From contig OY997655.1 of the NCBI GenBank assembly GCA_963921795.1, positions 11,633,083-11,697,082 on the forward strand: a DNA stretch of 64,000 nt, given 5' to 3'. Below are positions 1 to 63,415 of this stretch, in pieces (within the stretch, counting starts at the first letter, position 1; each line of letters opens with the position of its first letter). The notes under the pieces are model-generated. The model was given only the letters and a program-made list of their open reading frames with translations, was not told the DNA's origin and made no database searches. The translations under genes were made by a program, and so were the position numbers. Source of the DNA: Nannobrachium achirus. Taxonomy: Eukaryota; Chordata; Actinopteri; Myctophiformes; Myctophidae.

Positions 1-344
1 GAAAAAGGAAAATAATTAGACTTACTGTCTTTTACAATGGCGACGATCAAGTATGATAAATGACAAGTAAAGGCAAATAAAGGTATCAAATGAAAATTGA
101 CAAACATAGACTTGTTTGAAAGCACTATCAAAGTGTAGCGCTGTGCACCTGTATTTTCAGACAGTAACCACTTAAAACCTCAAAGCTTGTAGATCTGCTA
201 TTTTTGGATAATGCACATTGTGAGCTTGTAGATCGGCTATTTTTGGGTAATTTACCCTTCAGAATAGGGGTGCTAGGGTTCAAGTGGTCAATGTTTTTTT
301 ATTAAAGGCCCCTAGGGGTCCTGGTCCCCCTGTTGAAGACTCAC
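1..344. other. Non-coding, hairpin-arm repeats
   Basis: Apart from right arms of the recurrent hairpin at about 184-205 and 226-250 (AGCTTGTAGATC followed by GCTATTTTTGG, twice in direct orientation), nothing recognisable is seen. The stretch would be intron or 3' flank of the GIMAP-type gene. Confidence 0.5.
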
Positions 345-487
345 ATCAGACTCTCCCATGGTTTCAACTCCCGAAGAGGATGCTATTGATCCACGATGTC
401 TCCTCTCCATCCAATCAGAAACCTTCTTGCTAGGTGAACCGACGTATGAACTTCCTGCTTCGGATGGTGTCGGGGTTCCACCACTCA
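345..487 (-). CDS. Serine-rich tail exon of the GIMAP-type gene
   Basis: A 143-bp exon with acceptor TGTCCCAG and donor GTGAGT, entering in phase 1 and leaving in phase 0. It encodes [20 protein letters not shown], then [20 protein letters not shown] and GESD. The beginning (SGG...) and end ([10 protein letters not shown]) resemble the small B-type exons at 37135-37068 and 36020-35953 in the kinase gene. No domain is recognised; it looks disordered and rich in phosphorylatable Ser. Any further exon would lie left of the window. Confidence 0.6.
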
Positions 488-3400
488 CTGGGACACAGAC
501 AACAGACATCAAAACAAGTACAATGATAATAATTTAAAAAAGAAAAAACTGTAACCCATTATATTTTTATTTTATTTTATTCTCTTTTCCACTTCACCCT
601 TTTGCAACCTATCTTCATGGAATGGAAGTGACCCTCACTAATGCTTGTAGATCTGTTATTTTATTGTAAATTATTATATAGTTTTAACAATATATTTTCA
701 AATGGGGGACCTGTCACAAAATGCATTTGTAGACAAATGCATTTCCAAGTTGGTTGGTTGATTGATTGATTGATTGATTGATTGACACCATCATTATTCA
801 AACAGTACAGAAGTACAGTAAAACAATTGAGCTAAAAGGTTAACACAACAAAGTCCTGGGGACTTGATTCCATTGTTGTCTGAATAATTGATACTCACTG
901 CTTGGAGGAAGGTGTAGTAGACTGCCCCTTCTCCTCCTGGCTGGTGTTGGTTCTGGCTCCTTCACCACAATCTTCAACATCCTCTCTATCATCTCCTCCT
1001 CTCTCTTCTTCCATTCTTCTTCCAAGCTGTTCCGTTCTTCATCTGTCAATCTTTCTTTCAGACTTTTGAACGGTATCATGTCTAAAGGTCCATAGTGTCC
1101 GCTGTTCCTCGTCACCATGTCTTCTATTTTCTCCATCAACTCTCGTATCTCTGAAATGCTCAACTTAGCGAATTCTAGAACATGGTACCTGTAGCCACAT
1201 TTCTCCAGAAGCCACCTCAGAGGTTCTCCTTCAGACTCGATGTACTCCTCAACACATCTCTCTCCCAGCCAGTATCCCCATGTGAACAGAACCAGAGCGT
1301 ATCTCCAGACTCGGTCCCCCAGCAGCTTCATGTGTTCCTCCACTGATCTCCTGTCAGCTTCAGAGAAACTGGATCGGACAGGAACAGGCAAAAGGACAGC
1401 ATGGGGTCCAGGGGAACACAGAGTCACACCGTGTAGAAGGACATCTTTGGTCTTCTGTGATGGAGGTGTAGTCGACCAGTCTGGACAGATCACCACACTC
1501 GCATGTCTTTCAGCAACTCTTCTCTGTTGTCTGACACATTCTGTCAGTTTAGTCTGGGTTTTAAACTCCTGGAATATGAGTTTACTATGTTAGTCATAAC
1601 TCATAATAATCAAAACCTTCATTCTATTCTGTCCTCAGTGAGGAGTTCCCTAGTCCTTGACTATTCTAACAATGTCACAGGAACACTTCACAATAAATAT
1701 GAATAAATACATGAATAATAAAAAATAATGAATGAACTAATTGCAACCTAACAACCTAAATATATCTGAATATGGTTAATAATCACATCATAGAAATGTA
1801 ATCTCAGTGTCAAGTACATGTAAATGTATTACAAGTACAATAATGTATTCTTATGTAATGACTCTTGAGAGGGAATATGTGTGTATGTGTGTATTGATCA
1901 CTGACGGTTAAATGGTCAATTAGTCATGCTGTCTTAAACAGTTGAACAGTATTTTATACTTTGGGTGTTCAAAAATAGAAGGATAAGCTCTCAACGTGTC
2001 ACTATGTGACATGGTTGCAACCTTATGGATATATTTTTGCGTCATCATCAGAAACAATTCCATTTGATATCTTTATGTTGAGGTCATTCATTACATCATT
2101 AGAACATCACATTCATACTGTATATTACTCACCTTGAATGGAGTTTCTGCAAACACAGTCTTCTGCAGTATTTCATTTCCAGCTCTGATCCTCTGAAGCT
2201 GCTCTCCACCAGCCAACATCACCCTCACATCTGGTAGACTCTGATGTTCTCCTGAAAGACAAACTCTACATTAGTTCACTTAACGCCGATTTAAATATTT
2301 AGGAGGCCGGATTCAGAGGTTGAGTGTTACAGCAGCCTTCATATTGTCGCTGTTGTGGAGAAACCTTGTATATCCAGAACTGATAGTTGTCATTATCAGT
2401 TGACATAACAAGCTCTTGGTAATGCTATTCATTGGTTCAATATAACCACAGGCAAACATATATATAGACAAATACAGAAAATAGCTGATCTACAAGCTCA
2501 CAACTTGTGTTGTGAGATTGTACGTTTTCCTATAATCATTTACCAGACAGTTTCATAACAGACAGGCAGATATACAGTAAACATTACCTTCAAACAGAGC
2601 TTTCAGAGCTGTTCTTTGTCTGTGTGTCTTGGTCATTAATGACTGGCCATGTTCCTCCACATTCTTCTTCCTCTCTGACAGCTTCTCTGAGACTTCTCCA
2701 TCAACTTCACAGTGTCCACCGCTGTTTGCTGCCACCATCTCCTCCATCTTCTCCAGAAGCTCTGTGACCTGAGTGTCATCTCTCTTCTGATTGTCGAGGA
2801 CATGATACCGGTTCCCACATTTGTCAACAAGCCAACGGAGGTCTTCCCCTTCGGTCTCTATGTGGTGCTCAATGCTTCTGTCTCCCAGATAGTCTGCCTT
2901 GGTGAACAGTACCATAGAGTGACTCCACACACTCTGTGGGAAAAGTGTCATGTGTTCCTCTACTGCTACTCTCTGTGCTTTGGTGAATGATCTATCGAGT
3001 GGAACCGCCAGAAGAACAGCATGTGGTCCAGGAGGACAGAGACACACACTGTTCTGGATCTCCAGTTTGTCCATCTCTGAGGTGTCCTGTAGTGGACTGT
3101 TGTAGAGCCAGCCTGGTGACTCCACCACTGTCAGACGTCTCCCTGCTACTTCACCCTGTCTCACCTTACACTGCACTGACCTCTGACCTCCCTGACTAAC
3201 TTTAAAAACACTCTGTCCCAGAATGGTGTTTCCTGCTGAACTCTTCCCAGACCACTCCCTTCCCAGCAACACAATCCTGAGGTCAGTCAGTCCTGTGAAA
3301 GAAAAGATAGTTTACTTTCACTTTCACTTCATTTTTGTTTAACCACATTTTTATTTTCTTCAAGAAATCCCTAAAAGCCAATCTACAACAGGCAACACAT

Positions 3401-4480
3401 TGTGAGCTTATAGATCAGCTAATTTCACAGTTTGTCATAAGGCAAAGTATACATGCCGTATTTTCCGGACTATAAGGCGCACTTAAAAGCCTTTAATTTT
3501 CTCAAAAAACTACAGTGCGCCTTATAGTCCAGTGCGCCTTATATATGGATCATTCATTGACATTGACATTCCCTTTAGCACAGCTCCATCTGTTGGATGC
3601 ATAACACAATGGTAGCGCCTATTATGTGCGCCTTATAGTCAGGTGCGCCTTATATATGAAAACAGTTTGAAAATAGACCATTCATTGACAGTGCGCCTTA
3701 TAGTCAGGTGCGCCTTATAGTCCAGAAAATACTGTAGGTTTAAAACATTGTAGCTATAACAGGATGTTCCTTGACTACTTCAACCCTATACTTAGTTGAC
3801 TGGAGTACCCCAGGGGATTATACTAGACCTCCTCCGGTGTCCGCTCGACATTAATAACCAATCTACAAACTCACAACACAAAGCAACGCAGAACGTGGTG
3901 AGCTTGCAGATCAGCTATTTTTGCCTAATGTTTTCTCCACGATAGGGATGCTAGGGATGTGGTTAAGCCATATATACTCCATAATATAAAAATAGCCAGT
4001 CTACAGTCTCACAACGGACCAATATGTGACGCAGAAATCAGTTATTGCCACTATTTTCAGGAAGGTACCAGTGTTGGCGACGGCGTATTTAAAAATGAAT
4101 CTCCAGCTAATACAATACAAACACAGAACATTTATTATAATAGCTAAATCCATTTTTATGGTTTCATGGGCTTTGAAACATAGCAAAAAAATCAAACCCA
4201 AGTTTGAAGTGAGCGGTGGTGCCTGCACGTGTGTGGGGGTGGGGGTGTGTGTGCGTGCGCGTGCGTGCGTGCATGCGTGCGTGCGTGCGTTGCTCACCCA
4301 GCTGGACTGTGTGCGTGTGTGTTCGGGGGGGGGGGGGGGGGTGCTTGTGCGTGAGAGAGAGAGTGAGCCATACTTGCTCACTCAGGCCCCAACTGGTTGC
4401 AGTTGATGCTCAGGGTAAGCTAGACTCAACAGCACCTCTCTGGTCACCCAGAGGTACTGAGGCTACATACACCTCAGGCT

Positions 4481-4515
<35 letters not shown>

Positions 4516-7500
4516 CACAGACACGGATACACACACGGCCACGCTATGGAGACGGTGTGACCACCGCTCAAAAATGCCAAAGCATATTTTCTCTCATGTG
4601 GTACAACACCTTTTAACACGTACATATCATTGCTTTCATGACTGTAGTTAGATCAGAGCTTCATGCATGTGCTTATTGTAATTGGATACTTTTTTTTTTT
4701 TTTGGAATGGAAACAATGTAAACTCTTTAGTATTTGTATAGAAAGGCCTAACCAGGGACAGGGATGCCAATTAGCCCCGGCTAGAAACACAATGCAACGG
4801 TTTCATGATTTTCTTTATAACTTGATATGTTTGTTTTTTGTATTGTCCCGGTCAAATAAACATAAATAAATAAATAAATAAATACACATGTTTTTAGTGG
4901 CAGAAATGAACATACAGTAGTTATACTCAAAGTTTCCCATGATGTAGTTTAACTATTATACAAGCTCTCTGTGCCACGCTGCAAGCTTGTAGATCTGCTA
5001 TTTTCGTATTAATTGTGAATATGTGTGCAACTCTTTAATATATTCACTCGATTCTATAAATATCTTCTAAATAGTTTTGGCAATATACACTCCCACCCAA
5101 TATGATTCCGTCCCTCTCGGGTCCAAAGCCCTGCATGGTCCTGGCCTGGACTTTGAACTTGTACGCCACGTTCTCACTCAGGTCCGGCACCGTCAGACTG
5201 GTCTCTGCGCCGTCCCCGCTCACCTGGAAGGAACGCACGTCTCCTGGGGGTGAAACACAGGGAACGATGGCTATTTAATACTTCCCGTCTATCAAGACTT
5301 TTGTTTGTTGTTTAGTTTGTTTCATTCAAGGCCTTTTTTTATTTGTATTTACAAGTATTAAAAAAGAAGTCTGGTAGAAAAAGAGAAGTATTTAACCCAT
5401 TCAAAACGGGTACACATTATTGCGTATTATTGTTTTATGCTTTAACTATTGAAAAATAGCAGATGTACTATACATGTATATCTGCTATTTTTCAATAGTT
5501 AAAGCATTCAATAATTCTAGGCCTAAATGGGTTAATGGGTTGATGTCCTTCCTGCTCACCTCCACCATGCAGCTGCTCACAGGTCACCCTGTAGCCCAGG
5601 ATGTCTCCGCTGGGCCTGCAGGGTTTGTCCCAGCTCAGGTGCAGGGCCTCTGGGCTCAGCACTGTGAACACCAGCGGCCCCGGAGCACTGGGGGTGCTCA
5701 GGGTGAACGGAGAACCTGTAGCAAGAATAACCAAGAACCAGAAAAGAGAAAAAAGATTAGGAAAACTAGAAAGGAAATGGGTAGATTTTATATAGATGTG
5801 AGTACGTAAAGTATGTATGTTGATAAGGATATGAAAAAGACACACTCTTCTCTGATGTTTTTTTGATGCAAGGTCTTCTTTTTTGGTCACATTTAACACC
5901 TGTTAATTCTACACATGTTACAGTAACGATTCCCCCCGTGAGGTCCCCCGGCCCCGTTAACACATTCCCTGACCAAATCGACCAACTTCATCGGGAATCA
6001 ATTCATTGCATTTTCCTAAGAGATACGTTATATAGTTTAACTTATATAAATGTATTCGTGAATACATTTTCTCCATTGAAAAATTAATTAAACTTTTCCA
6101 AAATATGGGCTTAATATTGATGACATCATGGATCTCCATATATGGGCATAAAAGGGACAATGACGGAATGGTTAGCACCGCTCAAATAAGGACAAGGACT
6201 GACAGATACAGAGAGATTTGCAAGTGTGACTCACCTCAAGGCAACCACACTTGCAATTTCCAATTGCATCTTTCTAGTTGTGTAAAACAAGTAAAAACAA
6301 AAGTGTAAAAGAAAGAAATCTCAAAAAGGATGCTACTATTTTCTTAAAAGGGTAAACCAATATAACGTCACTGTCGGACAGAAACCTTGCATCTCCAAGT
6401 GTACGTTCTTTCGTAAAGTCAAGCCCTGCTTCATACAAGACTGTCGCACAAAACCAGTGAAAATAGCAGATCGGCTGTTTTCACTGGTTTTGCGAATCTT
6501 CTAAATGATAAATGGAAAACGAACAGTTTTGGACATACAAGGTTGAGGAATGTACTGCAACAGGGTGAGTATACCTGGCATGGGGCTGAGTGGACTGTTG
6601 GGGTCCACGGCAGACTCGATGGTGGTGATCACTCCCTCTCTCTCCAGGCCCCAGCCCTCCTGGCTCTGACCTTTGACCTTGAACAGGTAGGAGTGGTTGG
6701 GCAGCAGGTCCTGGACGATCACAGAGTTCTCCGCTGGGCCGGTCAGGTTGATGCGCTTCACCTCCCCTGGGAGGAAGAGGAGTTAGAGTTCTCAACGGGC
6801 CTGAAAATTAACATACATTTTAAGCCCTACCCGGCCTGAAAACGTTGGGTCGGGTGTGGTCAGGTCTATCACAGAGTAATAGTAATAAAATAAAATAAAT
6901 ATATATTTTCTTTTTTCATTGAGCCTGAAGCCCTACCCGGCCCGACTAATTAGCATACATTTTAGGCCCTATCCTACCCTAAATGTGGGTCAGGTCCGGG
7001 TATGGTCGGGTTCGGGCAGAATTTGAGAACTCTAAGAGGAGTAGGGATGAAAATTTCATGTCGCGATTACCGTGACCAAAGATGTTGCGATTTACGATAT
7101 TATAATCATGATAATCAAAATATCCCCAACGTCCATCCTGGGGCGGAACATTTGCCAAAAAATAGCAGATCAACAAGCTCACAAGCTTGTAGATCAGCTA
7201 TTGTTTGGCAAAGAGATTTGGTAGAGAGTGAACAAAAAGACTGTATCAAGTACGTTATTTCCAGGTCCGTTTTACCAATTATAAAGGGTTTAAATGGTAC
7301 CGGATATGCAGCTCGGCAAATAAAAGGTGAATTGATCACAGTGCATGATGGAGGACGATTTCACGATAAATTAAATCCCCACGATACGATTATTGTGAGT
7401 GTTTTGTTATCACGTTAAACAATAATAACGATTATCATCCCATGCATAAAGAGGAGAGGAGAGGACACGCCGCGCTCAGCAGTGGCTCAATATCCTGTGG

Positions 7501-10500
7501 GTGATTGTCTTCATTCAACCGCTCATCTTTTAGTGGTTCACTATTATAACCACTCAGATTGTCCATTGAGAGAATGACTAAGATTGACTATTCAACTCTC
7601 TCCACCACTATGATACCCAAGTACCTGTAAACATTAAGGATGTCCATAATTACAACACCAGAGGCAGCGCCACAGACCACTTTCAACCCAGAGTCAAAAC
7701 CAACAAAGGGTCAAACTCTTTTCTCTGCTATACCACCAAAATGTGGAAAGCCTTACCGAAGGCCATAAAGGAGTGTGGATCACTAGCATCCTTTAAAATT
7801 GCCCTGAAAAACCACTTACAGGCAGCAGCCGTTCGCAACTGGTAAAAAAACTAACCTAACCCAACCCTACCCTCCCCTGCCCCTTCTTTGTATATACTTA
7901 CTGTTTGTTTTGAATTACTGTTTTCCTTTTTTTTTGTTCTCTCATTTTTATTTGTATTTACATATCTACTGCATAGTACTGTGTTCTATTCGTCTGTCAT
8001 TCAATGTTATATGAGATACTTTAATGGTCCTTGTACCAGTGAACTGTACCGTCATGAAACTGTACCTTTTCCTATGCAAACTTCTAATAAAGTCTTCAAT
8101 CAATCAATTAATCAATCCAGTAGAGACAGTAGAGACAGAATTTGGCAGTAAATCTAATATAACAGCAAACAACAAACTCTTATGAGAGCCCCTGGTACAA
8201 ACTATTAGCAAAAGAAGTCGGGGTTCTTGAAAACAAAACTTTTTCTTATACAGAATAAAAAAAAAAAAAAATTGAGAGCAGTGGTTTGAAAATTACAAAA
8301 TGTAAACAATCTTTTGAAATGATAAAAACTAAATGTAGGAAACCAAAAATAATTCGGAATATATTCTTTACACTGTTTAGGAAACAGTGTAAATTAGGAA
8401 TAAAAGGTCAAAGGAACTCAAAGCTCATCACACGTTACCTCCGTTCAGGAGCTGATAGAGGACACAGTAACCCAGGATGTCCTTCTCACAGTGGGGCTCC
8501 TGCCAGCTGACCTTGAGGGCAGTGGGACCCAGGGCAGAGAACACCAGCCTGGTGGGGGTTTCTGGGACCCCTGGGCTTAGCCTTGTATCTGAGGGGGTGG
8601 GGGTACAGAGGACTGCGTTTAGGAAGACAAGAGGCTGAATAATATCAAGCTGAGATGTACTGTACATCTTGGGAAAAGAGGGAGCGGGGCAAGTGCTCAC
8701 AGCGTGAAATTGAGAAATATGGCTGTAATGTTCTTATTTTTTTAATACTGTCTTTTGCGATGTTTGCATGAGACTATTAACAGATGGAAAATTCACTTTG
8801 TTGGGAAAATGAAAAAGAAAAATGTGTGCTCAACACCAAAACCTCCTATCTACTATTTCTACTATTTCTAGGTAAAAACCTCTGCAGTCGACAACATGCA
8901 GATTGGAGAATTTTACCTAGAAATAGTTAGGCAATTTCTTTGTTAAATAACACTTTTTTTTGTACAGCTCTTAATTATGCTCCTTTTGAGATCAGGACAT
9001 TCTACAGGTCTGTTACAATGAAAAAATGTTATCAACACACCCTCTTGGTGCGGTAAAAGTTTCACCGCCTGACACCAATCATTAATGCAGATAGGAGGTT
9101 TTAAGCTTCAACATTTTGCCACTTGCCCATGGCCTACTATACAGTTAGCTGCACACTCACCCTGGAGGACCCTGTCCAGGTTGGCCAGGGGGTCGGTGAC
9201 ATCTGAAGCTGGGGACCTGGCTGCACGCGAGCGCTGCTGCGGCAGGCTGAAGCCGTGTGTAGAGCTACTACTGTCAGGGGTGCCGTAGCCAAACCCACCT
9301 GAGAATGAACCAATGAGCAAAAAAAGGCAAGAGAGAAAATGGGGAGATGGGGAATGGGTTGGTGGGGGGGTGGGGTGGGTTGTGGAAGGGAGAAAGATAG
9401 ATCAAATACGGAGATAATATGGTAGAGCAGGGGTGGGCAACTTTGATGATGGCGAGGGCCACTATATTTCCACCTTCACTCCAGAGGGCCACATTGCATA
9501 TTGCTACGTCCTACTTTATCATATCTCATACAAAATAAGCAAAAATTGCCGATCTACAAGCTCAAAACGCATCGCAGTAGATCGGCTATTTTTGCTTCTT
9601 TTGAATTGGAATCCTGAATTATTTTTTGTTGTTTTTTAATTGAAATCCTGAAATGTAACATTTGTATCTAATTTCAAATGCATTTAGTTATATACTCATG
9701 TTAACTTTATGAACCTAAATACGAATACATTGGACATAAAAAAATACATTTTAATACTACTATACTAGTCATTAAGCTACTAATATAGACTGACGGTATT
9801 AAAGCAGGTCTTGTTTGGAATTGTAACAGCTGAAATCAGTAATATATCAGTATTCCGGTATTAACCTGCGGGCCGCATTAAGTGAAGGTGGGGGCCGCAT
9901 GTGGCCCCCGGGCCGCCTGTTGCCCATGTATGCGGTAGAGGAAGAGTAAAGACAGACAGGAGGAGAGAGGGAAGGGGAAATTCAAGGTGACAGGAGGAGT
10001 CATAAAATGGAAGGAAAAGATATAGAGGATGAAAGAGTTTTTTTCCAGTGCTATTGAACACCCTTTAAGGTTGTGTGTTGGTTAAAAATATTGAACTAAT
10101 GAAAAGTATCAAAAAGCTCTCCGGCCCCAAAGTTTAAACCTCCTAGCTCCACTTGTGTTTTTATTTCCTGAAAGAGTTAGCTAGTTACTGCCCGATAGCA
10201 GAGATATATATTTTTGGACTGTATGATCTCCTCAAATTATAACAATAGCATTTAGATTAGAAAAGTATCACTTTAACAAAGTAAAACTAAACATACCCAT
10301 ATTTTTTGGAAGTCCAGTTGATTGTTTCTGAGCGTCTGCCCTCCTTTGTTCTGCTCTTCTGCTGATAGATCTCCCCATCTCCTTCAGTTCCTCTGAGACG
10401 TGTTCTTCTGTCTCATAGTGACCATTACTAGTCACCATCTGATCTATCTTCTCCATCAGCTCTGTGACCTGACTACCATCTCCTCTGTCACTGATGTTAA

Positions 10501-11575
10501 GAACATGGAAGCGGCCCTCACATTTCTCAGTAAGATATTTTAACTGATAGTCAGATCTTATGCGATCTGGTGCCATTTGCACAAGTGACTCATAGCTTTT
10601 GGTTACAGTGAACACCACAATAGTGTGGGTCCACACTCGATCACCGAGGAGAAATCTCAAATGCTCCTCTACTGACATCCCTGTTCCTTCATATGGGGCG
10701 GGATCCAATCTCATCACTAGGACAAAGACATGGGGTCCTGGAGGACACAGATTAACACTCTGTTGGATTTCTAACTGAGTGAGTTTTGGGGTCAGATCTA
10801 GGGGATAAGATAACCTCCATCCTGGAGTGTTGATCACAGTCACCTGTCTCCCTGAAACTACTGCTTGTCTCATGACACTCTTTGTTGTGTATGCGTCAAA
10901 AACATCTCTTCCCAAGATTATGTTTCCTACTGAACACTTTCCACAGAGTGACTTTCCTCTTTTTCTTGCACCAAGCAGAACAATTCTCAGTTCTGTCAGG
11001 TTGCTGTTCTTCCCTGGTTGGAAAAAATAAAAATAATATTCATAAAGATCACAGATGTGACTAAATCAGTATCAGTTTGTTGGTTTCATGTGTTTGTTGT
11101 TTTAACATAACTCACCTCTGATGGAAGCTGAGGTGGACATCCTGCCGACAGCTGTTTGAACAGTAAAAAAGTCAAAATAATATCTTTATTATTAATATGT
11201 TATTATTATTATTGTAGTTAATGTGCTCAAACAATGTATGTGCACTGCTATATTTGACATCATTGTAGGGTCACATTATCTCTCTTAAAAGCTTCCATTG
11301 ATGAGGAGAAGCATAGATATCTGTCTTGTGAGTGCCCGGATCTACAATTTTTTATCATAAATGTCTTATCCCGTTTGATCCAGGAGCACCTTTAACTACA
11401 TTTAACTTTAGCTACTTTTTTGCGTCTCCGGTGAACACCTGTTTATCTCTTTCTCTCTGCAAATTAATAAGTCATACAGTATGCTTGATATTTCACGTCA
11501 TAATGTTTTACCTGCTGGCGTGCTGCTGGTCTGATTCCTGCTCTGCAAAGTGTCGCTCTGCGTTGCTGCCTCCAT
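345..11575 (-). CDS. Candidate chimeric GIMAP / integrin-beta-4 FN3 / GIMAP gene (multi-exon)
   Basis: Proposed coding exons, in transcript order on the minus strand: 11575-11512, 11151-11116, 11013-10297 (GIMAP), 9298-9161, 8588-8439, 6766-6575, 5715-5560, 5243-5097 (integrin beta-4-like linker and two FN3 domains), 3292-2588 (GIMAP), 2251-2133 plus 1568-899 (degenerate GIMAP), 487-345 (tail), possibly continuing past the window. Each border shows AG before and GT after. The exons from the first GIMAP through the second GIMAP all start and end in phase 1, so any subset can be spliced in frame. GIMAPs are small GTPases on lymphocyte membranes; the integrin beta-4 FN3 domains normally face the cytoplasm. 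The simplest reading is a GIMAP gene with several AIG1 domains that has captured an itgb4 fragment in an intron. Alternatives are two interleaved genes, a silent itgb4 fragment that is skipped, or a misassembly. Individual domains are certain; the joined transcript is inference. Confidence 0.5.
751..785. repeat. (TTGA)n microsatellite
   Basis: Tandem TTGA/GATT units, as found at the 3' tails of teleost LINE copies; no LINE body is evident next to it. Confidence 0.7.
899..2251 (-). CDS. Degenerate GIMAP domain split over two exons (likely pseudo-GTPase)
   Basis: Exon 2251-2133 encodes [20 protein letters not shown] followed by NEILQKTVF, which aligns with the start of an AIG1 domain, but the GxxGxGKS loop has become [11 protein letters not shown] with no lysine-serine. 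Exon 1568-899 resumes in phase 0 with [25 protein letters not shown] stands where DTPGW is expected; the GIMAP box follows as [15 protein letters not shown], then [20 protein letters not shown], where TWGYWLGE replaces TKAD. G1, G3 and G4 are thus all lost while the rest of the fold and the reading frame persist, which suggests a selected non-binding domain rather than decay. The exon ends with an Arg-rich stretch and PPSS before a GTGAGT donor, a tail shared with the kinase gene at 35-37 kb. Confidence 0.75.
2588..3292 (-). CDS. GIMAP/AIG1 GTPase domain exon 2 (most intact)
   Basis: A 705-bp exon, acceptor TTTCACAG and donor GTAATG, phase 1 to 1. The encoded domain starts [10 protein letters not shown] and carries the P-loop [16 protein letters not shown], a G3-like VVESPGW (E instead of D), the GIMAP box [35 protein letters not shown], a clean TKAD G4 motif, the [14 protein letters not shown] stretch and a Lys/Glu/Arg-rich C-terminal helix. 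This is the only one of the three GIMAP domains in which G1 and G4 both look functional. The upstream integrin-type exon at 5097 also ends in phase 1, so direct splicing is possible. Confidence 0.9.
3454..3737. mobile_element. MITE with CGTATTTTCCGGACTATAAG ends
   Basis: Inverted ends CCGTATTTTCCGGACTATAA (about 3456) and its near-complement ending TCCAGAAAATACTGTA (about 3736) flank a 280-bp unit with internal repeats of GCGCCTTATAGTCC. It lies in the intron upstream of GIMAP exon 2. No coding sequence. Confidence 0.65.
4238..4520. repeat. Simple repeats: GT/GC, poly-G, (ACAG)n
   Basis: A GTGTGCGTGCG tract (4238-4320), a run of about 18 G (4324-4342), a GAGA run, and (ACAG)n at 4481-4514. 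Confidence 0.85.
4855..4886. repeat. (AAAT)n microsatellite
   Basis: AAATAAAC followed by repeated AAAT units; short and otherwise unremarkable. Confidence 0.7.
5097..5715 (-). CDS. itgb4: Integrin beta-4-like fibronectin type III domain (FN3-4), two exons
   Basis: Exons 5715-5560 and 5243-5097 encode [20 protein letters not shown] through [20 protein letters not shown], the last FN3 domain of integrin beta-4. The phase is 1 at each border. The second exon stops after RDGIILG at a GTGGGA donor. The family normally continues with an IITIES-type strand and a C-terminal tail of several dozen residues, and no exon for that tail is visible between 5096 and 3293. The itgb4-derived segment therefore seems truncated almost exactly at the domain end, which supports a captured fragment over the native gene. 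A missed tail exon elsewhere remains possible. Confidence 0.85.
5439..5505. repeat. Hairpin of the recurrent family, 25-bp perfect stem
   Basis: GCTTTAACTATTGAAAAATA GCAGA at 5439-5463 is the exact complement of 5481-5505, with a loop of about 17 bases. The inner part matches the family core; the outer GCTTTAACTATTGA is shared with copies at 21.7 and 22.3 kb. Confidence 0.85.
6361..6543. mobile_element. MITE-A copy (TCGGACAGAAACC end) with central hairpin
   Basis: Starts near GTCACTGTCGGACAGAAACC and ends in GGACATACAAGGTT. Central hairpin arms read AAAACCAGTGAAAATAGC and GCTGTTTTCACTGGTTTT. It shares both flanks with copies at 57.6, 58.4 and 59.2 kb. It sits 32 bp from the FN3 exon ending at 6575. 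Confidence 0.6.
6575..8588 (-). CDS. itgb4: Integrin beta-4-like fibronectin type III domain (FN3-3), two exons
   Basis: Exons 8588-8439 and 6766-6575 encode one complete FN3 domain. Recognisable stretches are [27 protein letters not shown], the NHSYLFKV strand and [15 protein letters not shown], which match integrin beta-4 FN3-3 closely. Donors are GTAACG and GTATAC, acceptors CCCCCTCAG and TTCCTCCCAG, and all phases are 1. In integrin beta-4 this region is cytoplasmic and binds plectin and BP180 in hemidesmosomes. There are no stops or frameshifts. The intron between the two exons (6767-8438) holds a LINE 3' end. Confidence 0.85.
7151..7212. repeat. Hairpin of the recurrent family
   Basis: Outer arms TTTGCCAAA and TTTGGCAAA, then core AATAGCAGATCAACAAGCT and AAGCTTGTAGATCAGCTATT, with a 3-base loop. 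Confidence 0.8.
7600..8118 (+). mobile_element. Non-LTR retrotransposon 3' fragment
   Basis: The plus strand encodes the typical C-terminus of a LINE reverse transcriptase [29 protein letters not shown] and FKIALKNHL, then a stop. A T-rich 3' UTR and an ATCAATCAATC tail follow. It is truncated at the 5' end and lies inside the intron between FN3 exons. The related copy at 21.1-21.4 kb is inverted. Confidence 0.75.
9161..9298 (-). CDS. itgb4: Integrin beta-4-like linker exon before the third FN3 domain
   Basis: This 138-bp exon (acceptor TTCTCAG, donor GTGAGT, phase 1 to 1) encodes a Ser/Arg/Pro-rich stretch starting [20 protein letters not shown] and ending [12 protein letters not shown]. 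By position and composition it matches the low-complexity connecting segment that precedes FN3 domain 3 in integrin beta-4. It is the first itgb4-type exon seen here; the extracellular, transmembrane and first two FN3 parts are absent from the window. The linker match is weaker than the FN3 match and rests mainly on order and phase. Confidence 0.55.
9428..9932. mobile_element. hAT-type MITE with 8-bp target duplication
   Basis: Inverted ends CAGGGGTGGGCAAC and GTTGCCCATGTATG, flanked by TGGTAGAG and CGGTAGAG (7 of 8 equal). A family hairpin lies at 9537-9597 with arms AAGCAAAAA and TTTTTGCTT. Confidence 0.75.
10297..11013 (-). CDS. GIMAP/AIG1 GTPase domain exon 1 with an altered P-loop
   Basis: One 717-bp exon encodes a nearly complete AIG1 domain. 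Order of motifs: [10 protein letters not shown], then the nucleotide-binding loop, a G3-like VINTPGW, the GIMAP-specific [12 protein letters not shown] box, [22 protein letters not shown], and a C-terminal helix with [15 protein letters not shown] ending in a basic stretch. The loop is unusual: [17 protein letters not shown] replaces the usual GKTGxGKSxxGNT form, so there are about five extra residues and GKC sits where GKS is expected, although another GKS lies just upstream. The usual TKAD-like G4 position reads FTVTKSYE. The acceptor CCAACCAG and donor GTATGT give phase 1 at both ends. GTP binding could be lost or altered; the fold assignment is secure. Confidence 0.85.
11512..11575 (-). 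CDS. First coding exon of the GIMAP-type gene (likely start codon)
   Basis: On the minus strand an ATG at 11575 opens a frame of 21 codons beginning [11 protein letters not shown], followed by a GTAAAA donor at 11511 in phase 1. Joined to a 36-bp exon at 11151-11116 (acceptor TTCAAACAG, donor GTGAGT), the frame stays open and enters the first GIMAP exon at 11013 in the correct phase. The 36-bp exon holds a second in-frame ATG at 11140 that could serve as an internal start. The N-terminus is short, polar and without signal peptide, as expected for a cytosolic GIMAP. The choice of start is inference from phase alone. Confidence 0.45.
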
Positions 11576-21436: not shown

Positions 21437-21688
21437 CAGTTGCGAACGGCTGCTGCCTGTAAGTGGTAGTGTACATGAATAAAACTGTAAAACTCATTAA
21501 CCTGCTGTAAGGAATGACTCTGCGGGTAAAAGTCCACAGGCGTGGCTCTGCATGAGGCTTGCCATGTGTAAGAGTCGGTGTGTGTGTGTGTGCGTGTGTG
21601 TGCGTGTGTATGTGCGCGCAGAGGTGTCGCACCAAATTCTGGGCCCTGGGTACAAGGATTCACTGCAGGGCCCCTGTGCTTTAACTAT

Positions 21689-22117
21689 TGAAAAATAGCA
21701 GATCTACAAGCTCACAGCGCGGCACCGAGTGCCGCACTGCGAGCTTGTAGATCTGCTATTTTTGACAAATCTATGTTTCTACAGTATGTCAGTGGAGCTC
21801 AAACCTTTTCATGTGAAGGACCCCCAAAATGGAATGTATTTGGCCACGGACCCCCATATCAAAATATTGAGTTCTAGGGACCCCCCTGAAGCAAAATTTG
21901 AGTTACAAATGTTCACATAAAAATACATATAGTCAAAGATTTGCACACATTTTCACGACTTTTCAAAAATAGCAGATCTACAAGCTCGCAGCACGGCACT
22001 TGTATATGAGCTTGTATATCTGCTATTTTTCAATAGCTAAAGTATAAAATAATTAAGGCCCCTCCACCACCTTGGGCCCTAGTAACTCAGTCCCACTTTC
22101 CTACCCCTTGTGACGCC

Positions 22118-26399: not shown

Positions 26400-29300
26400 T
26401 TACTTAAATGTAATTAAGTATTCAGGATAAGCCATGGAGTCGTGGAAGATGATAAACATGGCTGGGCTTTGCATGTTGTTCACAACACTGTCATAAAGCA
26501 CAGTGGAGTTGGAGCTCTTGACTGGTGGTACGATCATGTGCTGCTTCCCCAGAGTGTAGTCTCCAGTCAGGACACGGCAGAGAAACATGAACTTCTGCCC
26601 CCGAGCATCCGGCTTGGAATAAGTGTCCTGGGCGCAATAATCGGCTCTTACGGAAAAGTAAGTGCCATTGCCATAACAGGCGGCTGAAAATACAGAGAAG
26701 AAGAAAGTGTGTTTAAGCCATGGTATCTTCATGGCATAAAGGCCATGAAGACAACTGTTTACACAAGAACAGTTAAAGTACATGTTCTGAATTTAGTCTT
26801 CCATTCCAACTAAATAATTTCCAATACAGTTACAGTTTAGGCATTTAGCAGACTTAATCCAGAGCGACTTACAATAACAATAAGCAAGGTAATACATAAA
26901 TACATCAATTGCATCAATCTAGAAAACATTACGTAGGTAGACCAAGAACCTAATCATAAAAACCTAAGAATAAAAACCTAATCATAAAAACCTAAGAATG
27001 CTATACTGTATATAGCAGGTACCGGTATATAGAAGATATACTGTAGCAGATGTATCCAGAGCATGCTTACAACTGCAATATGATAGTAAATGGCATGAAT
27101 CCTAGTCAACAGGCTGAAGACAATCATCTTTCTTTCTTTTTTATTAATTTAGATGGGACAATTAAAATGAATCAGCTGATCATGATCTTATGTAGACATG
27201 CCAGATTTAGCTAGAAGCAAATTTGGCCAATAGCTGGGAGACCCTCCCAGAGGAAGCACACATAAGCTCTGGTAAGGATTGCATTCCTCATTCTTTCACA
27301 CTTCAGCTCACTTAGCGAACCTGGCTAGCAAACCTGGCTAGCAAAACACACATTCTCGCTGGATTTAGCATGTATTTCTACATGGAAAATGAGGTCGCAG
27401 TTAATTGGCGGCTGTCAATTAACTAACACAACAACTGTTTGCTATGCCTAAGAAATGTTGTTGGACAAGGTGGTGTGTGTGTGTGTACACGGTCACCTCA
27501 ATTGATCCAATAGCCAGTGTCGCATACATTTTCTTGAATCTCTCACCCAGCAATTCTCACTTTAAACACTGCCCTCAGATGGTCCAATGTTTCTACCAGC
27601 TTAGTCTTTGCCTAACAAAGACTGTGCTGTCAGTGTGTGGAGAAATATTTTTCTATTCGTAATTGATGATTATGACCTGGACCTGTACACCGCCGATCTT
27701 TGTGTCTAACGTACTTCTCCCCATGAAAACATGCACATTAAAGCATACAATCAAAACCTAGAATATTGTCTTGACTCCAATTGCCTCATCAACTGATTGG
27801 TCCAGAATTCCACGACAATGTGTACACTATATATCTACTAATCTTACAAGGTATAACTCTCACCATTCATCCCAGCATAACTCCTGTTGAAGCCATAATT
27901 GCTGATGGGTTCAACAGTGGTTGGGCAGGTTCCATGGAAGAGGCGTTTCTCGTTGTTAGTGTGGCCGTTTCTCTGTTCCATGTCCTGCTTCTTGATTTGG
28001 AAACTCTTCCACAAGGTTTTGTTCTGTATCCTCTCGATCTGGGGGAGAGTAAAAATACTTGGTTGTTCCTCTTCTTACTTGAAGTTTTTGTTATTGCAAT
28101 GCATGGATGACATTACAGTTCATCATTTATATATAGACACCTTATTCACAGAGATTGTTATATCGTTTACCATCTCCTTTTCGATGCGTATCTCCCTTTT
28201 TAGCTACATCTAATTAGCTTGTGCCACAGTGCATAATGCATATTTGCCTATGAGGTGCAGGGTGCTTTTAAAACGTGTGTATGAATTATATTTACATTTG
28301 TGCAAAGTAATTGTGGGCTCGCCTATAAGGCGAGCACACTCTAGATATTGTCATTATTAGTGGGCTCGCCTGTAAGGCGAGCACACTCTAGATATTGTCA
28401 TTATTTCTATACTAAGCATATCAAGTTCTCCTCAATACTTTGTCCGCTTTCAACTCCTACATACTTAGTGAGAAAATGAAAATAAAAACATCAATGTGTT
28501 CAGCCTATAGTGGCGACGTGTGCTATTATTTTCTAAAGCAATCGGCCAAATGGTGGCGCTGTAGGAAGCCTTCGAAAGTGCGAACTTTGAACAGGTAGAG
28601 CTCATGCTCTGTTATACGTACAGCCATGAAACCTGTATACACGTATGCGTCTCCTCATGCCGAACAACTTTTACGCTCTGACTTTTGACCTCTGACCTTT
28701 AGATCCCCCAGAATTTGGAATTATATGAAAAACAGTAAAAATCTATCTCCTCCTAGGATTTTTGCGATACGCGCATGAAACTTTTTTTCACATGAACTTT
28801 GGACTAATACGGCCAAACTAGTCTCGGCGGATTTCTTTTAAAATGAAATATAATTTTTTAATAATTCAATCAATATTGCGGTTTTATGCAAATTATTCTT
28901 CGGCCTCTAAATCATACATGCAAAGTTACACGTTCATGGCATTTGGCAAAGATGTGGAGGGTTAGTCAAAGTATCACTGAAACCAATTTTATTCCAATCG
29001 GCCAAAGGGGAGCGCTATACGAAGCGTTTGAAAATTCAAACTTCAAACGGGCATAAGTCATGACTCGTTTTGTTTGAAGACATGCAACTTGTTACACGCG
29101 TGCTTTGACTCGAGCGGAAGACATCTGTGTCGTTGTTAAGTAAGCTCCGCCCTTAGATTTTCCGCCATATTGAGCAGTTTGTAAAACGCGTAAACCCGCT
29201 TTTATTCTGGAATTTTCGCTCCACGTGCACAAAACTTTTTTTTACGTGAACTTTGGACCGATATCTAAAGATCTGTCAGATCGGATTTCTTTAAAATTGA

Positions 29301-30298: not shown

Positions 30299-30619
30299 CT
30301 GTATGTAGAGTTCAAAGCATAAAACTCATTACAGAGGTCAACCTGGCATTTGTTTTAATCAACTGGGGGTAAAGATTGTGGGTTTTGCCACAACAATTAC
30401 ATTTCAGACAGGAATCCATACATGTACTTTGAAACATGTTCCTATCATCACACGTCAATTCAAACCCGAACAAACTCTAAGAACAAACTGAAAGTATAAT
30501 TTGACCTATACATAGATCTGCTTTGGATATCGTTTAACACTGGCTCCCTACATAACATATCTAATTAAATAGTGCCTCCCAAGCCAAAAATACAAGTTAC
30601 ATTTTCTTACACAACTTAC

Positions 30620-33098
30620 CATTGACTTTGTCAATGCGCCTGAAGGTAATTAAGTATTCAGGATAAGCCATAGAGTCGTGGAAGATGACAAACAGGGCTG
30701 GGCTTTGCATGTTGTTCACAACACTGTCATAAAGCACAGTGGAGTTGGAGCTCTTGGCTGGTGGTACGATCATGTGCTGCTTCCCCAGAGCGTAGTCTCC
30801 AGTCAGGACACGGCAGAGATACATGAACTTCTGCCCCTGAGCATCCGGCTTGGAATAAGTGTCCTGGGCGGCATAGTCGGCTCTTACGGCAAAGTAAGTG
30901 CCATTGCCATAAAGGGCGACTGAAAATACAGAGAAGAAGAAAGTGTGTTATAGCCATGGTATCTTTATGGCATAAAGGCCATGAAGACAACTGTTTACAC
31001 AAGAACAGTTAATGTACATGTTCTGAATTTAGTCTTCTCTTCCAACTAAATGACTTCCAATACAGTTACAGTTTAGGCATTTAGCAGACTTAATCCAGAG
31101 CGACTTACAATAAGCAGGGTAATACATCAATTCAATAAGCAAGGTAGTACATAGATACATCAATTGCATCAATCTAGAAAAACATACGTAGGTAGACCAA
31201 GAACCTAATCAGTAAAAAAAAAGAATACGTTATATAAAAACCTAAGAATGCTATACTGTATAGCAGGTATATAGCAGATATACTGTAGCAGAAGTTCTTA
31301 TCCAGAGCATGCTTACAACTGCAATATGAGAGTAAATGGCATGAATCCTAGTCAACAGGCTGAAGACAATCATCTTTCTTTCTTTTTTATTTATTTAGAT
31401 GGGACAATTAAAATGAATCAGCTGATCACGATCTTATGTAGACGTGCCAGATTTAGCTAGAAGCAAATTTGGCCAATAACTGGGAGACCCTCCCAGAGGA
31501 AGCACACATAAGCTCTGGGTAACGATTGCATTCCTCATTCTTTCACACTTCATCTCACTGAATGAACAAAATAAACGTGGCTAGTAAAACACACATGCTC
31601 GCTGCATTTAGCATGTATTTCTTCATGGAAAATGAGGTCGCAGTTAATTGGCGGCTGTCCAAATCGCCAAGATGAACCCTAACACAACAAATGTTTGCTA
31701 TGCCTATGGAATTTTGTTGGAAAAGGTGGTGTGTGTGTGTGCTGTCACCTCAATTGATCCAATAGTCAGTGTCGCATACATTTTCTTGAATGTCTCACTC
31801 AGCAATTCTCACTTTAACCACTGCCCTCGGATGGTTCAGACACATATCAGAAAACAAATATCCACACACTGAATTCAACTTGCATAAGTATCTCTACAGT
31901 CATGCCATCAACATGGATCTGTCCCATTTCCCTTATTCCCTCCTGATTGGCTACCATTGCCTTCAAAAGTTTGATGGTCGCTTATCTCCCTTTTTAGGGA
32001 GTCTTACTGGTAATAGCAATGTTTCTACCAGCTCAGTCTTTGCCTAACAAAGACTGTGCTGTCAGTGTGTGGAGAAATATTTTTCTATTTGTAATTGATG
32101 ATTATGAGCTGCACCTGTACAGCACCGATATGTGTGTCTAACGTACTTCTCCCCATGAAAACATGCACATTAAAACATACAATCAAAACCTAGAATATTG
32201 TCTTGACTCCAATTGCCTCATCAACTGATTGGTCCAGAATTCCACGACAATGTGTACACTATATATCTACTAATTTTACAAGGTATAACTCTCACCATTC
32301 ATCCCAGCAAAACTCCTGTTGAAGCCATAATTGCTGATGTGGTCAATAGTAGTTTGGCAGGTTCCATGGAAGAGGCGTCTCTCGTTGTTAGTGTGGCCGT
32401 TTCTCTGTTCCATGTCCTGCTTCTTGATTTGGAAACTCTTCCACAAGGTTTTGTTCTGTATCCTCTCGATCTGGGGGAGAGTGAAAATACTTGGTTGTTC
32501 CTCTTCTTACTTGAAGTTTTTGTTATTGCAATGCATGGATGATATTACAGTTCATCATTTATATATAGACACATTATTCACAGAGATTGTTATATGGTTT
32601 AGCATCTCCTTTTCGATGCTTATCTCCTTTTTTAACTACATCTAATTAGCTTGTGCCACAGTGCATAATGCATATTTGCCTATGAGGTGCGCTTTTAAAC
32701 GTGTGTATGAATTATATTACATTTGTGCAAAGTGATGCTTATACTGTATAAAGCTAGAGTAGAGGGAAAGGCAGGTAACCTATAGTGTGGGGAAAGGTAT
32801 GCAATCACATTGAGAAGCATTGCTACAGACCTTTTACTGGAATCTCTCTTGACTTTTAACACATATTTAACCCAGAAATAAAGGAACCAAGACATCCAGC
32901 ATAAGGGAGTTGTTGCATAGCAAGCAAGGGTTATAGTACATATTAACAAATTGACTACCTTAATAACCGTTCGAGTACATGAGAATCTGAACAGAGTAAG
33001 GACTTCATTGTACTCTGGGCTTCTCCGCTGGACGGTGATGGTTTGGCATGGGGTGTTGACTGGCATGGCATCCCAGTGCTGAGGCAGATTGTTAGCAT
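30620..33098 (-). CDS. parp14: PARP14-type ADP-ribosyltransferase catalytic cassette, copy A
   Basis: Three exons: 33098-32959 ([17 protein letters not shown] ... SPEYNEVL), 32470-32296 ([10 protein letters not shown] ... RLFHGT ... [10 protein letters not shown]) and 30919-30620 ([20 protein letters not shown] ... [18 protein letters not shown] ... [15 protein letters not shown]). Together they form a complete catalytic domain of the PARP14/PARP15 class, which adds single ADP-ribose units to proteins and is interferon-linked in vertebrates. The NAD-binding His (FHGT) and Tyr (GTYF) are present. Unlike copy B, the end does not stop after ITF; it runs on to a GTAAGT donor at 30619 in phase 1. 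If that donor is ignored, translation would stop near 30597. Macro and WWE domains are not found upstream within the window. Confidence 0.8.
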
Positions 33099-40600: not shown

Positions 40601-43521
40601 TAGGCCTATGTGAACTTAGTTTGCACATAAATAACTGCATGTATCTACTTTCTGTTAAACAAAACAAAATACTAATTGCGACCGTAGGTCGCAGTTACTT
40701 CTATACTATCCAAACCTCCACAGGCCGTCAGTCCGTCAGTCAGTCAGTCAGTCTGTCCCTCCGTCACGTCACTCGTCACACGTCACACTTTCCCCCTACT
40801 CATATCTCCGCCACCGTTGGCCCGATCCATGCCAAAATTTCCACACAAACTCCTTGCCTGCCAAACTACAACCTCCAAGGACCCCCGGAGCTCCAGGGAC
40901 CCCCAGGTCCCTGGGGGACCACCAGGTGTAAAAAATGACCAAATGTGCAAAAAAGACCAAATGACCACCCCAACGGGGCTGCACACGAGGAATTCCCGGG
41001 GACCACCGACACCTGGTGCTCCAAAACGGATGCAAAAGTGGTAGCGCCCCCAGTGGAGGACCCCCTCCACTGCAGCGCACATAAAATGCCGTAACTCGGG
41101 CTAGGAGCGACCGGGAGAGCCGGGGCCGGTACCTATTCGTCCGCTTCGGCGGCGCGGACACCCCACCCCTCACTTCTCACATGGCCCTCTTCTAGCGCCA
41201 CCATGAGGCCGATTCTTGCAAAACACATTCTTGGACACTGCTCCTACAATTTTTGCCCTAAAATCACGAAAATCGGTACACAGTATGTCTACACTCATGT
41301 CATCAACTTGGATCTGTCCCATATAGCGCCACCTTCAGGCCGATTTTTTAAAACACATTTTTGGACACTGCTCCTACCATTTTTTCCCTAAAATCACGCA
41401 AATCGCTACACAGTATGTCTACACTCATCTCATCAACATGGATCTGTCCCATATAGCGCCACCTTCAGGCCGATTTTTTTAAACACATTTTTGGACACTG
41501 CTCCTACAATTTTTGCCCTAAAATCACGCAAATCGCTACACAGTATGTCTACACTCATGTCATCAACATGGATCTGTCCCATATAGCGCCACCTTCAGGC
41601 CGATTTTTTTAAACACATTTTTGGACACTGCTCCTACAATTTTTGCCCTAAAATCACGCAAATCGCACAGTATCTCTACAGTCATGTAATCACAACGCAT
41701 CTGTCCCATCTAGCGCCACCATCAGGACGATTTTGGAAAGACATTTTTTTTTGCCTATTTGTGGAGATAAGCGACTTATCTCCCGATTAGGGAGTCTTAC
41801 TGGTATTAATATGGGTAATAAGGGAAATAATAATAAGGGTAATAATAATAATCAGCTGAGTTGATTCAGGGGGACATAATTAGATAGACCCAGACAATCC
41901 AACAGAAAATGATGACTACCTGTAGACATCAAAGGCGGGGGTGGATTTGTATGACAAGGAGAAGGCCTCTGGAGGCATGTAGCTGGTCGTCCCCGCCCCC
42001 TTGCGAGCAGAGGTTGTCGAACAGCTGTTGATGAACCTCGAAAGGCCAAAGTCAGTGATCTGGATGAGTAAGAGAGGAGAACGGAGAGAACAAAGGGAAC
42101 AGACAGAGGAAGAGAGACATGCAGAGAAGTGCAAGGTTAGGAGGAATAGAGAGAGGTTTAGGAGAGAGAGAGCAAGGGTGAATGATGATAGTAAGTGTTA
42201 GTATCTCCTATTCTCAGAGACTTTTCTCCTTTACACTCACCAGTGTGGCAAACTATGTGAAAGTCACCTTTTATGGGTTGACAGGTTTAATTGCGACCGT
42301 AGGTCGCAGTTACTTTTACACTCTCATACTATCCAAACCTCCACCAGCCGTCAGTCCTTCCTTCCTTCCTTCCGTCACGTCACGTCACTCGTCACACGTC
42401 ACACTTTCCCCCTACTCATATCTCCGCCACCGTTGCCCCGATCCATGCCAAAATTTCCACACAAACTCCTTGCCTGCCAAACTACAACCTCCAAGGACCC
42501 CCGGAGCTCCAGGGACCCCCAGGTCCCTGGGGGACCCCCAGGTGTAAAAAATTACCAAATGTGCAAAAATGACCAACCCAACGGGGCTGCTCACGGGGAA
42601 TTCCCGGGGACCACCGACTCCTGGTGCTCCAGAACGGATGCCAAAGTGGTGGCGCCCCCAGTGGAGGACCCCCTCCACTGCAGCTCACATAAAATGCCTT
42701 AACTCGGGCTAGGAGCGACCGGGAGAGCCGGGGCCGGTACCTATTCGTCCGCCTCGGCGGCGCGGAGACCCCACCCCTCATTTCTCACATGGCCCTCTTC
42801 TAGCGCCACCTTCAGGCCAATTCTTGCAAAACACATTTTTGGACACTGCTCCTAAAATCTTTTCCCTAAAATCACGTAAATCGGTACACAGTATGTCTAC
42901 ACTCATGTCATCAACTTGGATCTGTCCCATTTAGCGCCACCTTCAGGCCGATTTTTTTAAACACATTTTTGGACACTGCTCCTACAGATTTGCTCTAAAA
43001 TCACACAAATCGCACAGTATCTCTACAGTCATGTAATCAAAACGCATCTGTCCCATCTAGCGCCACCATCAGGACGATTTTGGTAAAACAAACTTTTGGC
43101 TTATCTCCCGATTAGGGAGTCTTACTGGTTTAAGTAGTCCTACAGTTAAATTGCAGGCAGTGAACTTTACTCAGACACTTGGTTTTTACAGTTCTGGAGT
43201 TTGCAGAGGTCTGTACTAAGGCTGCCAAATTCATATTCGAATATCGAATATTCCTCGAATATGGAAAGATATCTACATTCGAATATGAAAATTAATATTC
43301 AAATTATTAAATATTGTTGTTATTGTTATTATTATTATTATAATTATTATTTTCTTTTTTTTAGGAGGGGGGCTAGTGAAAGTTACGGATATGGTGTGTG
43401 TGATATGAAATGTAAGCTTACCATAATCAATCAACTTAATCATTTTCAATTAAGGGCTTTTGGAGAGAAATGAGACACACTCCAGTCACTTTCAGAGCAC
43501 TGCAGAGGGAGGGTGTGTGTG

Positions 43522-60800: not shown

Positions 60801-61624
60801 AATTAAGTATTCATATGTTCAAGTATTCAGTGACAAAAACACAATTAAATCTCTGATCGCTAATTTGTGGGACAATTAATCGTCAACTTAAATGTGTAAT
60901 CGTGACAGCTCTAAGCACCTGCAGGCTGAACCTGAAAGGCTATTGTTAGAGGTCTAATGACAAGCTGTTTTTTTTAAGGGTCATGGTCCTTCAAACGTGT
61001 ATTAAAAGGTTTTAACTGAAAAATCCACTCCAGTGAGGCTTGAGCCATGGCCGTTTTATTTCTCTCTGTGTTCTGATGCCTTTTGAGTTGCAGTGAAAAG
61101 AATGCGTGATTCCTAAACCCACCAGGCTTGAGTTAAGACCCGCCTCGCGGAAACGCGAGGACTTCCAGGAGTGGCTGAAATCCCTGCCTGACACATGGAG
61201 GGTGGATAAAGTCAGAGGCATGAAGACTTGTACTTGAGAAATCAAACCTCGGTTCGAAGTGGAGCGGTGAATTTGAGCAGCTGTACCCTATGTGAGTGAG
61301 TGAGTGAGTGTAAACTGTGCCTGTGAGTGAGTGGTGAGTGTGCCTGGCCTGCACAAAACAGCGCCCCTCCTTTAACTAGTGTGTTGTGTGTGGCCACTCA
61401 AGGTATTGCCCAGGCTACGGACAGGGCCAGCCAGCCAGCCAGCCAGCCAGCCACATACCCACGGATATACCTGTTCATTGGAAGCGCTTTCACCGCTCCA
61501 AAAAGCCTGCATTTGCACAATGCATAACTATTAATTTCTCACTACAGTGCTCAAAATAAACTGTGCTAAAACATTTTTGGAGCGGTGAAAGCGCTCCCAA
61601 TGAACAGGTATATCCGTGGGTATG

Positions 61625-61656
<32 letters not shown>

Positions 61657-63286: not shown

Positions 63287-63415
63287 CTGAGGCCAAGGAG
63301 AGAAGATGACATGTTAGGAACATTAGCCGCTTATGTGAACTAGGATAACTCTGTTATAAATGATCTATCAATACTGCTGTGATGTGTCTTGTGTGTGATG
63401 TTGAGTAGTGCGGGG

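Follow-up and report, generated by a model that had tools for sequence, protein, structure and literature searches.

An integrin beta-4 fibronectin type III segment captured in phase within an intron of a three-domain GIMAP gene of Nannobrachium achirus

The locus described here raises the question of whether a gene of the GIMAP family has taken up part of an integrin, and what has become of the part taken up. The window is the whole 64,000-nucleotide stretch analysed from the myctophid fish Nannobrachium achirus (assembly GCA_963921795.1, contig OY997655.1, positions 11,633,083 to 11,697,082), and positions within it are counted from its first letter. The original prediction placed a GIMAP GTPase exon, five exons related to integrin beta-4 (itgb4) and a further GIMAP exon in one order on one strand with an unbroken frame, and proposed that an itgb4 fragment had been captured in a GIMAP intron. 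Location of the individual borders bears out the order and the open frame, and the capture is upheld by a located parent, homologous introns and a paralogous intron without the block. On balance, the locus is best read as a genuine exon-shuffling event whose captured exons are probably spliced at least partly, with a functional chimera possible, if unproven.

The host is a three-domain GIMAP gene spanning 11140-312 on the minus strand, with each border placed by sequence pattern. Its own exons are the following.

11116-11140, minus strand: start-codon exon, MSTSASIR, with a phase 1 donor (border location)
10297-11013, minus strand: GIMAP (AIG1) domain 1 exon, here GIMAP1 (Pfam and border location)
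2588-3292, minus strand: GIMAP domain 2 exon, here GIMAP2, with the canonical P-loop GREWSGKS (Pfam and border location)
2133-2251, minus strand: GIMAP3a, first exon of domain 3, without a P-loop, a state also seen in paralogues (border location)
899-1568, minus strand: GIMAP3b, second exon of domain 3 (Pfam and border location)
312-487, minus strand: terminal coding exon with the stop codon (border location)

Each of the nine internal exons has AG before it and GT after it. Counting from the start exon, phase 1 holds at every border through the entry to GIMAP3a, which agrees with the phase predicted from the first through the second GIMAP exon, while the border between GIMAP3a and GIMAP3b is phase 0 and the last border is phase 1. 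Both the 1064-residue frame that includes the five itgb4-derived exons and the 803-residue frame made of GIMAP exons only are open. The three domains score 95.1, 138.1 and 69.9 bits against AIG1 (PF04548, cut-off 27), with an intact P-loop of the form GxxxxGK[ST] only in domain 2; that of domain 1 ends in GKC, and domain 3 has none. Among 30 aligned copies of the GIMAP array, 29 have GKS at the position of this GKC and the copy at locus L017 has GRS, and the GKC ending may weaken nucleotide binding by domain 1 of the window copy.

Five itgb4-derived exons sit at 9298-5097, in the intron between the first and second GTPase exons, and correspond to the end of the itgb4 connecting segment and to the third and fourth fibronectin type III domains (FnIII-3 and FnIII-4). 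The FnIII part scores 114.9 bits against fn3 (cut-off 25), and the pair matches the solved human ITGB4 FnIII-3,4 (6gvk) at E 5e-99. The block and its surroundings comprise the following features.

4162-10042, minus strand: itgb4-derived block, exons and introns, homologous to the parent at C18:26173673-26178536 and interrupted by later inserts
9161-9298, minus strand: captured exon, end of the connecting segment, 46 residues (border location, parent comparison)
8439-8588, minus strand: captured exon, first half of FnIII-3, with five synonymous and no nonsynonymous differences from the parent
6575-6766, minus strand: captured exon, second half of FnIII-3, carrying one in-frame 3-bp insertion
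5560-5715, minus strand: captured exon, first half of FnIII-4, with six substitutions, for every one of which the window copy is judged to hold the derived state
5097-5243, minus strand: captured exon F4b, second half of FnIII-4, truncated, with the native donor deleted and a new donor TGG/GTGGGA
4193-4571, no strand assigned: later insertion with simple repeats within the itgb4-derived block (segment comparison)
3261-3953, minus strand: GIMAP intron and first GIMAP2 bases on the 3' side of the insertion, homologous to the intron of loci L029 and L035

The source of the block was sought by searching the FnIII protein against the genome as a whole (1.66 Gb in 564 contigs), which returned nine matches: four in the window, four at C18:26.174-26.177 Mb and one weak match on contig C22. 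The C18 matches mark the one further locus with a strong FnIII-3,4 signal, which lies on the same contig as the window, 14.5 Mb away, in a region (C18:26.17-26.207 Mb) where itgb4 can be read from its integrin head through its C-tail. Homology between the window and this parent is collinear, introns included, over 4.9 kb of parent sequence, and chance resemblance is excluded because real itgb4 introns as well as exons align over that length. The two were compared by segment alignments, as a global MAFFT alignment was misplaced around the inserts; across the introns, 127 of 1612 aligned sites differ (7.9%), with 32 indels. The captured exons use the native sites at five of five acceptors and four of five donors, the fifth donor being replaced in phase. 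Fourteen itgb4 peptides read from the C18 locus necessarily map back to it; when they were searched in the window plus 20 kb of flanking sequence, 11 had no match there, and nothing matched the peptides of the integrin head, EGF, Calx-beta, FnIII-1 and C-tail. The fn2a peptide gave a cross-match to FnIII-4 only, and true matches were confined to peptides of the connecting segment and of FnIII-3. Because none of the other peptides tried has a true match in that stretch, a second complete itgb4 gene was ruled out, and a copy dating from an old whole-genome duplication was ruled out by the low intron divergence.

The state of the intron without the block can be seen in paralogues of the host gene. 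Among the 40 scored of 756 candidate matches in the genome, the GIMAP1 exon is found at 39 other places, 36 of them at C18:6.08-8.38 Mb, and ten paralogue loci were compared over 10 kb each. GIMAP1, GIMAP2 and GIMAP3a occur in the window's order in eight of the ten, GIMAP3b also in seven of those eight, and a match to the terminal exon in two of the loci compared. Within the 10 kb compared, locus L029 has GIMAP1 and part of GIMAP2, L030 has GIMAP1 alone among good matches, and neither has a match to GIMAP3a; GIMAP2 of L028 and L036 is an open frame when a merged-in second match is read apart from it. In L029 and L035 the intron separating domains 1 and 2 is shorter than 1 kb and lacks the itgb4 block, and the window intron matches those loci at either edge (10310-10205 and 3953-3261) with 65-70% identity. 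The sole match between these short introns and the itgb4 block is a short hairpin repeat (e.g. 5103-4970). Approximately 225 bp present in the paralogue intron lack a counterpart in the window, and the exact breakpoints are therefore not fixed. In a tree of GIMAP1 exons with midpoint rooting, the window copy is an early outlier. As a separate observation, an element of about 280 bp with inverted ends (ACTATAAGGCGCAC) lies at 3455-3733 within the GIMAP intron and is not found in the matching intron of L029. The third GIMAP domain had been called degenerate; a decay peculiar to the window copy was ruled out, as the same GIMAP3a is present in eight of the ten paralogue loci.

The insertion, its direction, its phase and its divergence can be read directly from the genome sequence, and at that level this is an exon-shuffled gene, with a phase-compatible insertion, a donor gene elsewhere and a host intron seen without the block. 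The match in phase is itself weak evidence: exons of FN3 domains are classically phase 1-1 and the GIMAP borders on either side of the insertion are phase 1, so that a mismatch was possible only in the entry phase.

The 3' end of the block has been altered since capture. The five exons had been predicted to end at 5097, and the coordinates hold, but 5097 is not an itgb4 border; it is a new, weak donor that followed deletion of the native one. The last FnIII-4 exon is 165 bp in the parent, with donor GAG/GTACGG, and 147 bp in the window, where approximately 23 bp, including the native donor and the residues TIESQDG, have been lost; FnIII-4 is thus incomplete, with the residues after GII deleted and replaced. 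The new donor preserves phase 1. On the splice-site weights used, the parent's native F3b donor has a score of -0.06, and a low score therefore does not preclude use.

To determine how the captured exons have evolved, their differences from the parent were polarised with 120 itgb4-like fish proteins, those listed of 844 found (several per species), and amino-acid changes were compared with neutral simulations started from the parental exons, run either at the intron rate or at the dS rate (dS and dN being synonymous and nonsynonymous divergence). The FnIII exons differ from the parent at dS 0.125 and dN 0.035, a ratio of 0.28, and the connecting-segment exon at dS 0.218 and dN 0.084, with seven of its eight differences not polarisable. 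FnIII-3 carries three substitutions, two of them changes of the window copy and the third, S/G at 106, not polarisable, compared with 9.3 expected at the intron rate (P 0.0145) and 14.4 at the dS rate (0 of 4000 runs). Gene conversion as the cause of the conserved FnIII-3 exon was ruled out, as five synonymous differences persist. FnIII-3 and FnIII-4 taken together also fall below neutral at the dS rate (P 0.003). No exonic frameshift has occurred on the window branch, compared with 6.7 expected from the intronic indels (P 0.0013) or 3.3 should exons receive indels half as often (P 0.035), and the two indel events in exons each preserve the frame (P 0.024, counting the F4b event as one, which does so only if the new donor is used). 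FnIII-3 appears to be held under some constraint.

Several observations weigh against a retained and spliced module. The pairwise ratio of 0.28 spans the constrained parent branch and is alone uninformative for the window copy. All 10 FnIII-4 substitutions are judged to be changes of the window copy, in addition to its changed end, and at five of those sites the parent residue is present in 120 of 120 proteins, and in at least 116 of 120 at three more. With 10-11 changes seen and 8.1 (intron rate) or 12.6 (dS rate) expected under neutrality, FnIII-4 is, on its substitutions, drifting at a near-neutral rate. At the intron rate the two domains together are not below neutral (P 0.24), and the split between them was chosen after the data had been seen. 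The new F4b donor scores 0.38 on the weights used, compared with 3.05 for the parent donor, and all of this concerns a single copy in a single genome.

These points lend themselves to a different explanation, that the block is a silent passenger: a neutral intronic insertion whose exons are skipped or rarely included, with the open frame a relic of a fairly recent duplication. This is a serious possibility, though a doubtful one. The neutral rate of FnIII-4, the loss of its end and donor and the fit of the total amino-acid changes to neutrality at the intron rate are as it would predict, and the neutral chance of no new stop is 0.27-0.43. However, the absence of frameshifts despite dense intronic indels (P 0.001-0.035) and the few changes in FnIII-3 are less easily accommodated, and with nearly all native splice sites kept in the itgb4 exons, complete skipping would need an active reason.

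At the opposite extreme, the chimera could be under selection as a tether, in which the module links the GTPase, within epithelial cells, to BPAG2 or to a plakin (BPAG1e, for example), with anchoring or sensing gained. In PMC4388270, ITGB4 FnIII-3,4 is described as a hemidesmosome module on the intracellular side, with BPAG1e and BPAG2 as binding partners. An extracellular-style reading of the predicted adhesion-type modules accordingly finds no support, and neither does the predicted membrane-linked GTPase array: inspection of the open frame by eye, with no predictor applied, revealed no membrane segment, and the putative chimeric product would be cytosolic. The last part of the connecting segment together with FnIII-3,4 is reported, in PMC4388270 and PMC4452579, to be sufficient for BPAG1e binding, with both FnIII domains required, and FnIII-3 is reported there as the BPAG2 binder. 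The captured unit corresponds closely to that sufficient piece and its better conserved half is the reported BPAG2 binder, but FnIII-4 is truncated and drifting, and the P-loop of GIMAP domain 1 is noncanonical. A selected tether of this kind is unlikely; the state of FnIII-4 makes BPAG1e binding doubtful and a function of FnIII-3 the better guess. Misjoining of an itgb4 fragment into the GIMAP locus during assembly is highly unlikely, given that the block differs from its parent by approximately 8% in introns and has its own insertions and deletions, as expected of a separate diverged copy, that the homologous GIMAP intron continues on both flanks and that the window contains no N. A plasmid search gave no match, as expected.

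Returning to exon shuffling with partial splicing, the alignment shows that a 4.9-kb internal piece of itgb4 was copied from the parent on the same contig. It comprises FnIII-3 and FnIII-4, the connecting-segment exon just before them, the introns of these exons and a portion of the intron that follows. The piece was inserted in sense orientation into a three-domain GIMAP8-like gene, in the phase 1 intron that separates its first two GTPase exons. Since captured and host exons at the site are symmetric at phase 1-1, the spliceosome can take in any subset of the captured exons, from none to the full set, with the frame staying open, and two or more isoforms are expected. The ordinary 803-residue GIMAP protein is most likely made, and some transcripts would probably encode a GIMAP-FnIII-GIMAP chimera of up to 1064 residues. 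Given the drift of FnIII-4 and the loss of its last residues and native donor, the useful part of the chimera, if any, would be the connecting segment and FnIII-3 between two GTPase domains. That a chimeric isoform is translated, that its FnIII-3 part is kept by selection and that it places a fast-evolving GIMAP GTPase at plakin or keratin anchorage, by way of a docking module of the hemidesmosome type, is, as a combined proposal, rather unlikely.

Apart from the captured block, the GIMAP array is itself hypervariable, in the P-loop and at switch positions. The GIMAP1 frame is open in 38 of 38 copies (L016-L026, L031, L033, L035 and L037-L060, mostly at C18:6.08-8.38 Mb), and in the 30 aligned copies variation is concentrated in an expanded, length-variable P-loop, directly after DTPGW and in two further loops. 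At 17 chosen GIMAP1 codons, nonsynonymous (pN) and synonymous (pS) variation are 0.34 and 0.16, compared with 0.025 and 0.048 elsewhere, the columns having been picked once the variation had been seen; the pattern resembles diversifying selection near the nucleotide pocket. In GIMAP2 (L027, L028, L029, L031 and L033-L036), the variable positions are three P-loop residues, four after DSPGW and two after VPL, columns that follow from domain 1, though the domain 2 variation there had already been seen. Across these eight loci pN is 0.33 and pS 0.03 at those positions and 0.042 and 0.047 elsewhere, an excess reached by 0 of 2000 random column sets.

Elsewhere in the window, two PARP catalytic-domain exons on the minus strand (26403-26792 and 30600-30947; Pfam PARP, 41.9 and 42.8 bits) are part of a tandem duplication with repeats D10, D12 and D15 spaced 4.2-4.4 kb apart. 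Weak protein-kinase matches below cut-off, presumably RIPK-like, lie at 41919-42197 and 46679-46960 on the minus strand. Exon-like frames at 58776-63313, also minus, gave only a sub-threshold Pfam TPR match in one of three frames and resemble a relative of SMYD2. Short palindromic hairpin repeats of family D7 occur several times, for example at 21679-21771.

The locus can be compared with three known systems. The accessible literature on GIMAP with integrin beta-4 in fish, or with a fibronectin type III fusion, yielded no chimera; with candidates restricted by length in both searches for relatives, PF04548 was not seen among 120 listed of 844 proteins related to the FnIII part, nor PF00041 among 120 listed of 1041 relatives of the GIMAP part. 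The host resembles the fish GIMAP8-like genes in its several AIG1 domains, with related fish proteins at 40-50% identity among the 120 listed (several of these from European anchovy), and in the order of GIMAP1, GIMAP2 and GIMAP3a shared by most of its paralogue loci, and differs from them in the itgb4 FnIII block after domain 1. PMC13403563 describes GIMAP8 expansion in European anchovy, and PMC9245644 reports GIMAP repertoires that in some teleosts approach 190 genes; the chimera, if made, would be a domain pairing not found described, in an immune gene family expanding in fishes. With ITGB4 the captured part shares sequence (6gvk and 6gvl, E 5e-99), exon borders and the parent's introns, whereas the peptides tried from the integrin head, EGF, Calx-beta, FnIII-1 and C-tail have no match in the window, the end of FnIII-4 is lost and the host is a GTPase gene. 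Exon-shuffled chimeric genes share with this locus the movement of symmetric 1-1 exons into a foreign intron while the donor gene still stands elsewhere; the pairing of AIG1 with ITGB4 FnIII was not found in the literature searched or among the 120 listed itgb4-like proteins. The event appears fairly young, with host gene, donor gene and insert-free matching intron all within one genome, and the fate of the captured module can be traced, with one half apparently kept, the other drifting and a splice donor replaced.

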